A DNA stretch of 12,520 bases, taken from the NCBI GenBank assembly GCA_905215145.1, contig CAJMOW010000026.1, positions 1 to 12,520 on the forward strand. Direction: 5' to 3'. Each line of letters begins with the position of its first letter. The first letter of the stretch is position 1. A program made the translations under genes and the position numbers. The notes beneath the pieces are model-generated. The model was not told the origin of the DNA. It was given only the letters and a program-made list of their open reading frames with translations, and did no database searches. This DNA is from an uncultured bacterium. GTDB taxonomy: Bacteria > Bacillota_I > Bacilli_A > RF39 > UBA660. Shown here in pieces: positions 4,384 to 11,120 of this stretch.

Positions 4384-4424
4384 TTAGTCCACCTCCTGAA
4401 CTTATAAATTTGTTTGCTCTAATA

Positions 4425-4453
4425 ATTATATAGATTAAACTTCGTTTTGTCAA
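4425..4453 (-). promoter_or_regulatory. Consensus sigma-A-type promoter of rpmH (rpmH-rnpA-yidC-jag unit)
   Basis: On the minus strand TTGACA (4448-4453) and TATAAT (4425-4430) both match consensus exactly with 17 bp between them. Transcription should start near 4418, about 20 nt before the AGGAGGTG site of rpmH. It points away from dnaA, so the origin region lies between divergent transcription units. Confidence 0.93.
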
Positions 4454-4710
4454 CAAATTTATGAATTTCCACTATAAAATTTGATATTAACTTATTTTCC
4501 ACAGAAAAAGATATTAAGAAATATGTTTATTTATATAGTTATCCACGTTTTTCCACAGTTAATGTGGAAAAATATACTAACAACAAATAACATGTTTATA
4601 TTTTTTTCCACATTTATGTTGAAAACTCATTTTTTTATTTAATTTTCTTAATTTAAACTGTGTATTATATTGTTAAAAACAAAAATTTAACTTTTTTCCA
4701 CAATATTTAT

Positions 4711-4738
4711 TTAACTTTTTGTTTTTTTATTGTATTAT
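4711..4738 (+). promoter_or_regulatory. Candidate dnaA promoter
   Basis: TTAACT (4711-4716) and TATTAT (4733-4738) are 16 bp apart, about 35 nt before the dnaA start codon. Both hexamers are imperfect and the region is AT-rich, so this is a best guess. A DnaA box (4694-4702) ends 8 bp before the -35, a position suited to autoregulation. The decamer TGTATTATAT at the -10 also occurs 70 bp upstream (4661-4670), which could be a second -10. Confidence 0.4.
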
Positions 4739-4772
4739 ATAAGTAATTGTTTCTCGTGATAGGGGTGAGGAA

Positions 4773-6122
4773 ATGGATATAAATAATATATGGGATTTAT
4801 TTTTGGAAAAAATGAAACAACAAATTAATCCAATGCATTTTGAAACTTGGTTTGCTGATACCAAACTTATATCTTTAGATGAAAACTGTGCAAAAGTATT
4901 AGTTCCAATGTCAGTTCATAAAAAACATTTAAAAGAGAATTATAACGATTTAGTTGTTGAATTATTTACTGAAATAACAGGAACTAACTTTAATTTTGAA
5001 TATGTACTTGAAGAAGAATTAAAGAACAATATTGTTATAAATACTGATGAAATAGGGGTTCCTTCAATAAGTTTTGATTCTAATTTGGACTCAAGATATA
5101 CTTTTGATAATTTTATAGTAGGGCAAAGTAACAAATTTGCTAAGGCAACTTCACTTGCTGTTGCAGAAAAACCTGGTTACATGTATAATCCATTATTTAT
5201 ATATGTAAAGAGTGGGTTAGGTAAAACTCATTTAATGCATGCTATTGGTAATTATATTAGTAAAAATTCAAATATGAAAGTTTTATATGTAACAAGTGAA
5301 AAATTTGTCGAAGATTTTATAAATATTTATAGAAAAAACAAAAATGATAATAATTTTGAAGATGTGGATTCATTCAAAAAAAAGTATAGAGATATAGATG
5401 TTTTAATGATAGATGATATACAATATTTAGAAATCGCTAATAAAACACAACAAGAGTTTTTTAATACATTTAACGAACTACATTGTAATAATAAACAAAT
5501 TATTATATCTTCAGATAGATCACCAGATGATTTAAATAAACTAGAAGAAAGACTTAGAACTAGATTTAACTGGGGATTAACTATTGATATATTACCGCCA
5601 GACTTTAAATTACGTATGGACATAATAGATAAAAAAATAGAAGCAAATAATATATCTTGTGAATTTCCAAATGACGTTAAAGAATATATAGCAAGCAATT
5701 GTACTTCTGATATAAGAAAATTAGAAGGAGCTATTACTAGGGTATTCGCTTATTCAATTATTATGAATGGTTCTGAAATAACACTTGATCTAGCTATTGA
5801 AGCATTAAAAGATTATTTTGTAAAAAGCATAATATCCAAAAACAAAGTTGATCAAGTACAACAAGTAGTAGCAGCACATTACAATATTACAGTAGAAGAT
5901 TTAAAAAGTAAAAAAAGAAATGCTAATATATCGGTTCCAAGACAAGTTGCTATGTATATATGTAGAACTGTACTTGAGGAATCGTTACCCAAAATTGGAA
6001 TGGAGTTTGGTGGAAAAGATCATACAACAGTTATGCATTCAGTAGATAAAATAAAAAAAGAAATAACTAATGATGCTTCTTTTAAAAATGAAATAGATAA
6101 ATTGATTAGTAAAATTAAATAA
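4773..6122 (+). CDS. dnaA: Chromosomal replication initiator protein DnaA
   Basis: A 449-residue DnaA of normal length that binds the surrounding boxes, oligomerises with ATP and opens the origin. Domain I spans about 1-80 and a short linker 81-105. Domain III (AAA+) starts at YTFDNFIVGQSNKFA. It has Walker A at 145-152, Walker B LMIDDIQ (211-217), sensor 1 at SSD (246-248), the arginine-finger region ERLRTRFNWGL (R264) and sensor 2 SDIRKLEGA (R315). Domain IV contains the box-recognition motif GGKDHTTVMHS (413-423). One oddity: the Walker A reads VKSGLGKT, with Val145 where the GxxxxGKT consensus has Gly; the codon GTA is one base from GGA. The ATG at 4773 follows AGGGGTGAGG (4761-4770). dnaN follows after 146 bp with no clear terminator between. 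Confidence 0.98.
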   Translation: MDINNIWDLFLEKMKQQINPMHFETWFADTKLISLDENCAKVLVPMSVHKKHLKENYNDLVVELFTEITGTNFNFEYVLEEELKNNIVINTDEIGVPSISFDSNLDSRYTFDNFIVGQSNKFAKATSLAVAEKPGYMYNPLFIYVKSGLGKTHLMHAIGNYISKNSNMKVLYVTSEKFVEDFINIYRKNKNDNNFEDVDSFKKKYRDIDVLMIDDIQYLEIANKTQQEFFNTFNELHCNNKQIIISSDRSPDDLNKLEERLRTRFNWGLTIDILPPDFKLRMDIIDKKIEANNISCEFPNDVKEYIASNCTSDIRKLEGAITRVFAYSIIMNGSEITLDLAIEALKDYFVKSIISKNKVDQVQQVVAAHYNITVEDLKSKKRNANISVPRQVAMYICRTVLEESLPKIGMEFGGKDHTTVMHSVDKIKKEITNDASFKNEIDKLISKIK

Positions 6123-6268
6123 ATCACAGTTTTCTAATTTTTATCAACAAGTTTTCCACAGCTGTTTTACTAATAAAAACAATGCTTTAAACAAAGTTTT
6201 CCACAGTTTCCACAACAATAATAACAATAATAATTTAATAAAAAATATATAAAATGGAGGATGATAAA
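6123..6268. other. oriC: Replication origin, right part: DnaA boxes and AT-rich candidate unwinding region
   Basis: The dnaA-dnaN gap holds TTATCAACA (6141-6149), TTTTCCACA (6152-6160 and 6197-6205) and, directly abutting, GTTTCCACA (6206-6214), all on the plus strand. The last two form a tandem pair. They are followed at once by seven trinucleotides of AAC/AAT type (6214-6234) and then an A/T-only run to about 6254. In Bacillus subtilis the unwinding element sits in this same dnaA-dnaN gap after a tandem box pair, so this is the likely melting site. The trinucleotide tract does not match the published DnaA-trio consensus on the expected strand. Confidence 0.85.
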
Positions 6269-7390
6269 ATGAAATTAAAAATAAAACAATCAATATTAAT
6301 GGAACATTTAAATTACGCTATAAAAGGAATTTCAAATAAAAATCTAATTCCTATATTAAATTGCATTAAATTTGATTTAACAGAAGATGGATTATATTTA
6401 ATGAGTTCTGATAATGACATAGCAATTAAAACTTTTATTTCAAAAAATCAAATAGAAAGTATTGATGTTTGTGGAGAGTTAGTTGTTTCTGGTAGATATA
6501 TATATGATATAATAAAAAAACTTCCTAATGAAATAATAAATCTAGAAGAAGTAATGGATTTTAAGTTATACATTACTACATCAAATTCTTCTTTTACACT
6601 TAATTGTAATAATGTAAATGATTTTCCACAGATAAAATTAGAAGAACATAAAAATCCAGTTGTTTTAACAACTAAAACGTTAAAAAATATAATTAATCAG
6701 ACTGTTTTTGCAACTTCTAATCAAGAATCAAGACCTATTTTAACTGGTGTAAATATTAAAATAAATAGAAATATAATGGAATGTACTGCAACGGATTCAT
6801 ATCGTTTATCTAAAAAAATAATAGAGTTAGATAATGAAGTATCTGAACCAGTTGATATAATAATTCCTACTAGAAATTTAAATGAATTAGTTAAATTATT
6901 TATGGATGATAATAATAAAGTTGAATTACATATATTTAACAATAAAGTTATATTTAAGTTTTCTACAATAATTATGATGTCAAGATTGATTAATGGATCA
7001 TTTATTGATACAACTGCACTTATTCCAAAAGATTTTTCAATTATAATGAAAGTAAATTTACAAGATTTATATAATGCTATTGATAGAGCTAGTTTACTTA
7101 CAAATGAAAATGATAAAAATACAGTTAAATTAGAAAGTTTTAATGATAATATTGTATTATCTAGTAATATACCTGAAATAGGAAATGTAACCGAAAAAAT
7201 TAATTTATTAAACACAATAGAAAATAATATTACGATTGCTTTTAGTTCAAAGTATATGATGGATGCATTAAAAGCATTTGATTGTGAAGAAATTGAATTA
7301 ATGTTCAATGGAGAAATAAGACCAATAATTTTAAAAAATCCAGATAGTAATGATCTAATAGAATTAATAGTACCAATAAGAATTGGCTAA
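6269..7390 (+). CDS. dnaN: DNA polymerase III beta subunit (sliding clamp)
   Basis: A 373-residue clamp protein of usual length with three repeated clamp-fold domains (about 1-120, 125-245, 250-373). It forms a dimeric ring that tethers the polymerase to DNA. The start MKLKIKQSILMEHLN, the NDFPQI segment and the carboxyl end LIVPIRIG are family-typical. An in-frame ATG lies 15 nt upstream at 6254. The start at 6269 is preferred because GGAGG (6256-6260) sits 8 nt before it, nothing similar precedes 6254, and the shorter N-terminus matches other clamps. It lies after dnaA as in most bacteria and may be co-transcribed with it. A weak hairpin with nine T follows the stop. Confidence 0.97.
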   Translation: MKLKIKQSILMEHLNYAIKGISNKNLIPILNCIKFDLTEDGLYLMSSDNDIAIKTFISKNQIESIDVCGELVVSGRYIYDIIKKLPNEIINLEEVMDFKLYITTSNSSFTLNCNNVNDFPQIKLEEHKNPVVLTTKTLKNIINQTVFATSNQESRPILTGVNIKINRNIMECTATDSYRLSKKIIELDNEVSEPVDIIIPTRNLNELVKLFMDDNNKVELHIFNNKVIFKFSTIIMMSRLINGSFIDTTALIPKDFSIIMKVNLQDLYNAIDRASLLTNENDKNTVKLESFNDNIVLSSNIPEIGNVTEKINLLNTIENNITIAFSSKYMMDALKAFDCEEIELMFNGEIRPIILKNPDSNDLIELIVPIRIG

Positions 7391-7406
7391 TTAATTCTTT
7401 TTTTTT
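7378..7406 (+). terminator. Possible weak terminator at the dnaN end
   Basis: AAGAATT (7378-7384) can pair with AATTCTT (7393-7399) around an 8 nt loop containing the dnaN stop codon, followed by T up to 7406 (nine T from 7398). There is a single G-C pair, so strength is uncertain. If real, it separates dnaN from comK. Confidence 0.4.
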
Positions 7407-7409
7407 CAA

Positions 7410-7465
7410 AAAATTTAATTTTTTCTACAAAATTCAACAAATTTCGCAAAAAAATAGTGTATAAA
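7410..7465 (+). promoter_or_regulatory. Candidate comK control region: one perfect AT-box and a possible -10
   Basis: AAAA-N5-TTTT at 7410-7422 exactly matches half of the ComK binding site (K-box) known from Bacillus. A partner box at the usual 8 bp spacing (7431-7443) matches only 4 of 8 positions. TATAAA at 7460-7465 is a possible -10 with no good -35, as often found at activator-dependent promoters. The match could be chance in such AT-rich DNA. Confidence 0.25.
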
Positions 7466-7515
7466 AAAGGAAATCTAGTTTTTTTTTGGAAAATTAGATA
7501 TAGGGGAGGTGAAGT

Positions 7516-7971
7516 ATGTTGGATAATTATGAAATAAATAAGTCAACACTTGCTATAATACCAGTTGAATCTAATATAAGTAAGATATATGAACATGATT
7601 CAAATTTTATAATTAATAAGAGTGTGGCTGATATAATTAATCATAGTTGTAAATATTTTGGTAGTTCTTATGTAGGAAGATATGAAGGTGCAAAAAATAT
7701 ATTAGGAGTTAGTTATAAACTTCCAATTATAATAGAAGAAACACAAGAATTAATATTTTTTCCTACGAATTCTCCAAGATTAGATAATTGTTCTTGGATA
7801 TCATTAAAAAATATTAATAATTATATAAAAAATGATAATAAGGTATTAGTAAATTTTAAAAATGGAATTAATTTAGAGTTTGATTTATCAATATTTTCAT
7901 TTGAAAATCAAATATTTAGAGCATTAAGATTGGAAAATATTTTAAAAACAAGAAAATTAATTCAAAATTAA
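7516..7971 (+). CDS. comK: ComK family competence transcription factor, short form
   Basis: A 151-residue ComK homologue. In Bacillus, ComK is the master activator of the DNA-uptake genes and of its own gene, binding paired AT-boxes. Set against B. subtilis ComK from memory, matching blocks run along the whole chain in the same order: YEINKSTLAIIP at the start, then SCKYFGSSYVGR (44-55), K-PI (68-71), FFPTNS (81-86), CSWIS (92-96), NFKNG (113-117) and SFENQIFRA (128-136). The B. subtilis protein is 192 residues; this one stops about 15 residues after the FENQ block and lacks the FMLYP-containing tail used for MecA/ClpCP control. The start is supported by GGAGGTGA (7505-7512). It sits between dnaN and recF, where Bacillus has yaaA, and is flanked by candidate terminators on both sides. 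Whether it activates transcription is inference. Confidence 0.92.
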   Translation: MLDNYEINKSTLAIIPVESNISKIYEHDSNFIINKSVADIINHSCKYFGSSYVGRYEGAKNILGVSYKLPIIIEETQELIFFPTNSPRLDNCSWISLKNINNYIKNDNKVLVNFKNGINLEFDLSIFSFENQIFRALRLENILKTRKLIQN

Positions 7972-8000
7972 GGGTAAAAATATTATTTTTTACTCTTTTT
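7970..8000 (+). terminator. Rho-independent terminator after comK
   Basis: Right at the comK stop, GGGTAAAAA (7972-7980) pairs with TTTTTACTC (7987-7995) with one G-T wobble, a 6 nt loop, and two more flanking A-T pairs, followed by five T (7996-8000). The recF promoter follows at once, so comK and recF are separate transcripts. Confidence 0.75.

Positions 8001-8095: not shown

Positions 8096-11120
<3,025 letters not shown>

Follow-up and report, generated by a model that had tools for sequence, protein, structure and literature searches.

Why does a gene for a competence transcription factor lie inside the cluster of replication genes, close to the likely origin? The question is raised by the window analyzed here, a stretch of 12,520 nucleotides from an uncultured bacterium, in which a sequence-only reading had recognized a comK homolog between dnaN and recF. 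The Pfam search confirmed this assignment: the product of the open reading frame (ORF) matched the ComK family with 145.6 bits (cut-off of 22.3), its residues 3 to 146 covering positions 2 to 150 of the 152 in the profile (Table 1). The NCBIfam search gave no match for this protein, the Rfam search gave none for the window, and a search of the PDB with the ComK profile returned a single match (E = 0.27). We found 566 ComK homologs with E ≤ 0.001, and the ComK domain was present in 120 of 120 among the matches listed; a ComK ORF was absent in 4 of the 141 sequences searched. The dN/dS ratios of the window gene relative to three relatives were 0.23 (L001), 0.20 (L002), and 0.43 (L004), values that point to purifying selection on comK.

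Table 1. Features around comK, with positions in the window
Feature	Position	Strand	Description
six DnaA-like boxes	4495..4702	.	5' of dnaA; one mismatch to TTATCCACA; GC-skew sign change
second DnaA-like cluster, three boxes	6141..6205	+	between dnaA and dnaN; one mismatch to TTATCCACA
dnaN	6254..7390	+	upstream neighbor of comK; three DNA_pol3_beta domains
array box 1, TTCTACA, Spo0A-type	7423..7429	+	sequence match
array box 2, TTCAACA, Spo0A-type	7433..7439	+	sequence match
array box 3, TTCGCAA, Spo0A-type	7443..7449	+	sequence match
candidate extended −10, GTG-TATAAA	7457..7465	+	10 nt after box 3; seen in the sequence; unreported by a simple sigma-70 scan
possible comK leader hairpin	7473..7499	+	12-bp A+U stem; −8.0 kcal/mol; z = −2.2; 6/200 shuffles as good
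comK	7516..7971	+	151-aa ComK-family competence transcription factor; PF06338, E = 1.3e−42; dN/dS 0.20-0.43
hairpin and T-run 3' of comK	7970..7997	+	11-bp stem; −9.5 kcal/mol; z = −5.3; 0/200 shuffles as good
recF	8096..9205	+	downstream neighbor of comK; TIGR00611, 298 bits (cut-off 172)

In the window, dnaN, comK, and recF share one strand with dnaA, gyrB, and gyrA (the last one cut by the window end), and rnpA, yidC, jag, and mnmE make up the other side of the cluster. A search of recF against viral contigs revealed no relative. The GC skew changes its sign near 4400-4800, at the upstream group of DnaA-like boxes, which is likely part of oriC. Exact TTATCCACA boxes were absent from the window, and 8 of its 17 boxes with one mismatch lie outside both clusters. 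The upstream boxes are about 2.8 kb from comK, in agreement with the earlier estimate that the gene sits some 3 kb from the initiation site. The comK gene of B. subtilis is far from the origin, and the Bacillus-type cluster reads dnaA-dnaN-yaaA-recF-gyrB-gyrA. The order of dnaN, yaaA, and recF in such clusters has been published (PMC10721633). The window resembles this cluster in gene order and strand but carries comK where Bacillus has yaaA.

A scan with two peptide patterns, run on one genome per species across 84,980 species, retrieved 336 relatives, and the window proteins were located by tblastn in the best 80 of them. The order dnaN-comK-recF on one strand was found in 71 of the 80 loci (best 80 of 336), and the claim that comK takes the slot of the Bacillus yaaA gene thus stands well beyond the window. 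A single flanking gene was present in 6 more loci, with the contig ending at the other side, and comK was outside the slot in 3 (L015, L043, and L066). The median gaps around comK were 138 and 140 bp. Five slot loci showed a long dnaN-comK gap, of 1217-1777 bp in four and of 825 bp in L036, where dnaN is split over two frames. Judged by eye, the contents of such gaps (L056, 8346-9740; L036, 4914-5399; L045, 8791-9864; L065, 4913-5824) are a transposase-like pair, ORFs resembling pilins, and one resembling a nuclease. Of the 80 relatives, 64 bear NCBI names in Bacillota and 15 in Mycoplasmatota, and their GTDB order is presumably RF39, RFN20, or a similar one; animal guts are named in many of the record titles and not in others. 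No report of comK in the dnaN-recF slot was found in the titles and abstract beginnings of the papers listed from the open-licence PubMed Central literature.

In a sample of 296 genomes from the class of one relative (G001), 130 carried comK. Its placement followed DnaN coordinates or, for genomes without a DnaN row, the fetched regions. In 37 of these 130 genomes comK lay beside dnaN and/or recF (slot genomes): both flanks were seen in 14, dnaN alone was seen in 22, and recF alone was seen in 1 (G310, at a contig end). The 14 include G236, whose comK is displaced and broken. The comK match of G126 contains an in-frame stop. One strong comK was off-slot, in G119 (L143), between ligA and gatC. 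In 92 genomes neither dnaN nor recF was seen beside comK, and the ComK matches were usually weaker; short contigs make the placement tentative in some of these genomes. The comK of G285 (L239) was considered as linked to the origin and rejected, the gyrase-like genes 1 kb away being parE and parC-like.

None of the 37 slot genomes had a strong S4_2 (yaaA) match, versus 89 of the 92 genomes with comK elsewhere, "strong" being our own cut, which separates best E values of ≤1.5e−16 from those of ≥4.6e−6 with nothing between. The Pfam cut-off was passed by 225 genomes and our cut by 218, leaving about 7 weak matches, possibly with slot genomes among them; the best S4 match in the slot genomes was weak (6.7e−6, G077). 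From this exclusion and the conservation of the slot we conclude that comK took the place of yaaA, probably once, in a large clade.

In a ComK tree of 101 of the 137 ComK rows (unrooted, built by a quick method, with several long branches, and without L153, which is broken, and some of L001-L080), the genomes with comK elsewhere fell on one side of a branch with an SH-aLRT of 88. The "moved" state takes two changes on this tree, and the three states together take 3, the minimum possible being 2. One arrival of comK and two departures would fit such a tree, in the direction that we infer. Four loci with a moved comK were examined (L015, L043, L066, and L143), so the slot is not indispensable. 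The moved copies lie near ligA (L143 and L043) and/or gatC (L143 and L066), and L015 has neither. The slot comK of L153 (G236; 4387-7552) is broken into two frames and lies about 2.9 kb away from dnaN, and the interval contains three ORFs that look, by eye, like genes for membrane proteins and glycosyltransferases.

In front of comK, the window reads TTCTACA-aaa-TTCAACA-aat-TTCGCAA (7423-7449), three boxes 10 bp apart that all deviate from TTCGACA. This degenerate copy has 17 of 21 matches to three TTCGACA boxes, a score equaled by 0 of 5000 shuffles. The relatives carry as many as three boxes resembling TTCGACA at the same place before comK, also with a 10-bp spacing, and the arrays of the three nearest relatives of the window score only 13 to 15 of 21. 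A score of at least 17 was reached by 29 of 80 comK upstreams (51 of 80 being under this strong threshold, and an 81st being too short) versus 0 of 534 control upstreams of nine neighboring genes in either orientation, counts that overstate independence since motif and threshold were picked after viewing these upstreams and the sequences are related. The signal appears at a spacing of 10; 8 pass at twice this spacing, 20, and none at the 13 other spacings from 7 to 21. Exact TTCGACA occurs 134 times in 1.26 Mb on both strands, 51 of them on the plus strand within 200 bp 5' of comK, in 38 of 81 sequences; the other 43 have no exact copy within 200 bp of the gene. The slot loci L152, L155, and L156 score 11-12, and the moved copies score 17 (L143), 14 (L015 and L043), and 12 (L066) of 21.

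A candidate extended −10 follows the array in the window. Of the 58 arrays with a score of at least 15 (found in 93 upstreams, 97 minus L148-L151, among which L149 is a slot row), 42 show a −10-like hexamer starting 9-11 nt past box 3. A promoter and terminator scan of the window found no terminator, and its promoter-like sites were fewer than in shuffles. This simple terminator scan demands 3 G-C pairs and does not report the hairpin 3' of comK, which is likely the intrinsic terminator of the gene. A leader hairpin similar to that of the window was found in L001 (z = −2.4), and those of L003 and L005 were not beyond shuffles. Only a weak hairpin follows dnaN (z = −0.9; 36/200 shuffles as good), so read-through from dnaN into comK is possible. 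On the whole, comK has a separate promoter region and probably a separate terminator, and it may be transcribed apart from dnaN.

The published Spo0A box is TGTCGAA (PMC5295017), of which TTCGACA is the reverse complement, and this points to Spo0A as the likely regulator of the array. Spo0A-type boxes near the comK promoter were found in the clade. The genome-wide counts rest on 23 relatives that were searched (G001-G023), not on the window's own genome. All 23 carry Spo0A, with weaker or fragmented matches in G008, G010, G016, and G022; that of G001 matched TIGR02875 with 268 bits (cut-off of 200), and its DNA-binding domain matched Spo0A 1lq1 with an E value of 1.7e−44. The 23 genomes contain 19 exact box pairs, and 16 of these served as an internal control: 5 precede spo0A, 6 precede an ORF of 409-425 aa, 3 precede comK (including two overlapping pairs in one genome), and 2 precede other ORFs. 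A Pfam search of four of the six 409-425-aa ORFs identified each as a HisKA + HATPase kinase. Upstream of spo0A, a pair score of at least 12 of 14 was found in 14 of 20 cases. When up to 2 mismatches were allowed, 134 pair hits were found versus 92 for the reversed pattern, a moderate excess only.

Some box pairs were seen at other places. One exact pair precedes a 140-aa protein with a sub-threshold Pfam match only (L189) and one precedes a metallophosphoesterase (L202), both possible Spo0A targets. In L190 (G021), a pair with one mismatch lies near 1501, between rnpA- and dnaA-like ORFs and 220 bp before dnaA, and recalls the Spo0A boxes carried by the oriC of B. subtilis (PMC5295017).

SpoIVA was present in 20 of the 23 relatives, whose assemblies, perhaps incomplete, measure about 0.5-1.5 Mb and have Spo0A throughout. 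Such a gene content suggests that these small-genome relatives may sporulate, and the SpoIVA count agrees with the prediction of RF39 as spore-forming (PMC10868615). The main text of that article contains neither "comK" nor "competence." Direct contact of Spo0A~P with the comK promoter is established for B. subtilis, where three of the sites are read as activating and two as repressing (PMC3297582). Both systems have a ComK-family protein and Spo0A sites at the promoter, direct binding having been shown in B. subtilis. The promoter of the latter combines five Spo0A sites with ComK boxes and Rok (PMC3297582), whereas here we found at most three predicted boxes in a strict 10-bp register, an extended −10, the dnaN-recF slot, and a hint only of K-boxes. 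The regulatory link between Spo0A and comK is already known, and what is new here is the phased array together with the location and the gene complement.

It had also been proposed that the lineage retains DNA uptake, and the uptake machinery was indeed found in the relatives. Each of the 23 carried a single comK and one ComEC, and a T2SSE-family ATPase was present in all 23, with more than 400 bits in 21 (that of G007 is cut by the contig start and that of G023 is weaker or cut). Both families are widespread, with matches in 14 of 14 (T2SSE) and 10 of 14 (ComEC) control genomes. The ATPase of G001 adjoins T2SSF, a prepilin peptidase, and a pilin-like start; it matches the GspE, PilB, and ComGA models, all below the cut-offs (266 versus 300 bits for ComGA), and can thus be called "ComGA-like" at most. 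The example loci of the relatives contain comEA, prepilin peptidase, and T2SSF, with comEA preceding comEC. DprA was found in 1 of the 23 relatives and missing in 22 (the B. subtilis control was found), and in the class sample none of the 37 slot genomes had it, against 16 of the 92 with comK elsewhere, one of them weak. This near-absence weakens the idea that transformation is retained. DNA uptake in the clade is plausible from the gene complement, and the results give no support to integration of DNA through the standard, DprA-dependent route.

ComK of B. subtilis acts at K-boxes, paired AT-boxes of the form AAAA-N5-TTTT, and we scanned for this box and its spacings; this criterion reflects the mode of action of ComK in B. 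subtilis and does not define the protein family. Paired AT-boxes had been expected before comG and comE, and the scan did not bear this out: 20 upstreams of the comGA-like gene showed no enrichment (z = −0.2), and the value for 21 comEA upstreams (z = 2.9) was like those of the control genes dnaA (3.0) and dnaN (2.9). The mean excess was largest at the recF upstreams (z = 6.3), where 1 of 73 was a high scorer. High scorers made up 8 of 79 comK upstreams versus 6 of 329 upstreams of five control genes (Fisher test; P = 0.0016, post hoc and on related sequences), a hint that comK may regulate itself via K-boxes. A lineage-specific ComK site may be used instead of the K-box.

Putting together the identity of the gene, its slot, the exclusion of yaaA, and the box array with the Spo0A and uptake genes of the relatives, we propose an account that we hold, as a whole, to be likely: a true comK that acquired its slot probably once, an array switched by Spo0A~P, and a ComK that drives the uptake genes. 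The gene would have come between dnaN and recF, probably once, in the common ancestor of a large clade of Bacilli with small genomes. A starvation signal would act through a sensor kinase to yield Spo0A~P, which most likely binds the three tandem boxes, one helical turn apart, 5' of the extended −10. Bound there, it would switch comK on under starvation, and ComK would turn on the DNA-uptake pilus and ComEA/ComEC. Binding of Spo0A~P to the three-box array before comK is predicted from the motif; that Spo0A activates rather than represses comK, and that ComK controls the uptake genes in this clade, we presume.

The place of comK next to the origin can be explained in more than one way. The gene may have entered the slot when yaaA was lost and been carried along by the conservation of the cluster, its position having no role, and we put the chances of such a frozen accident at about even. 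The near-single transition on the ComK tree, the distribution of yaaA (0/37 versus 89/92), and the persistence of moved copies, of which L143 alone among four has a strong array, all favor it, although the five slot loci with dnaN-comK gaps of 0.8-1.8 kb and the broken copy of G236 reveal a gap that can be disturbed and in which comK mostly stays. The sequence-only reading had suggested a gene-dosage switch, in which, as in the pneumococcus, comK would be kept beside oriC and replication initiation or fork stalling would raise its copies and thereby induce competence; we regard this as plausible but rather unlikely. The pneumococcal comAB and comCDE genes form a peptide-sensing system and not a ComK one. 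These master competence genes lie near the origin, as comK does here, and respond to replication dosage (Slager 2014, cited in PMC6289044), a control that would have to be assumed for comK. Similarly, Spo0A~P of B. subtilis is coupled to replication through the placement of two genes, spo0F close to the origin and kinA close to the terminus (Narula 2015, cited in PMC5295017); a Spo0A-network gene is tied to replication by its position there and would be so here, but there it is the phosphorelay that is positioned and here a presumed Spo0A target. The 2.8 kb to the DnaA-box cluster and the slot kept in 71 of the 80 loci (best 80 of 336) would agree with dosage control. Against it, comK is gone from the slot in four examined loci, and the entire dnaA-gyrA cluster is syntenic, so that position alone is no sign of selection for dosage.

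Other explanations concern the partners of comK. It is unlikely that ComK no longer runs uptake and controls other genes, for instance, the neighboring replication or repair genes: the comGA-like gene without K-box enrichment, comEA not beyond controls, the mean excess at recF (z = 6.3), and the near-absence of DprA would fit such a shift, but only 1 of 73 recF upstreams is high-scoring, and comEC and the T2SSE-family ATPase are found in 23 of 23 relatives. Less probable still is an array bound by a regulator other than Spo0A. The degenerate boxes of the window leave some room for it, but the array motif, read on the opposite strand, equals the published Spo0A box (PMC5295017), the same pair stands at the promoter of spo0A itself, and no relative among the 23 lacks Spo0A. 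Nearly all of the 80 loci are titled as metagenome-assembled or uncultured records, which would leave room for an assembly or binning artifact, but the same arrangement recurs in 71 of 80 separate records with ComK identities of 45-82%, which makes the probability of an artifact negligible.

Returning to the account in which Spo0A~P switches comK on, a bolder extension would make competence a replication-gated branch of the sporulation decision, with Spo0A~P-driven comK by oriC and DprA-free uptake of DNA serving for food, repair, or DprA-independent transformation; we offer it as speculation, and in this complete form it is doubtful. If true, starvation signaling, origin copy number, and DNA uptake would be coupled in one small circuit. 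The anatomical link between Spo0A, comK, and the replication origin is kept across many uncultured Bacilli species, and B. subtilis has the pieces separately, namely, Spo0A gating of comK, Spo0A at oriC, and a replication-coupled phosphorelay. Two questions become testable with this locus: whether chromosomal position itself regulates competence outside streptococci, and what purpose DNA uptake serves in small-genome lineages with the uptake machine and without DprA. In the relatives, DprA is almost missing while comEC and the pilus-type ATPase are retained.

A minor observation concerns the upstream region of the comGA-like gene. A palindromic operator was considered there and given up in favor of a two-way promoter with symmetric halves, to which the opposite-strand pairs of hits led us. 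Centered on the palindrome TATTATATAATA, this promoter is conserved and serves both the comGA-like gene and a pilin-like gene divergent from it (L112-L133). Among the 21 of 23 genomes scanned, opposite-strand hits 19 bp apart occurred in 8 and the symmetric promoter pattern in 19.
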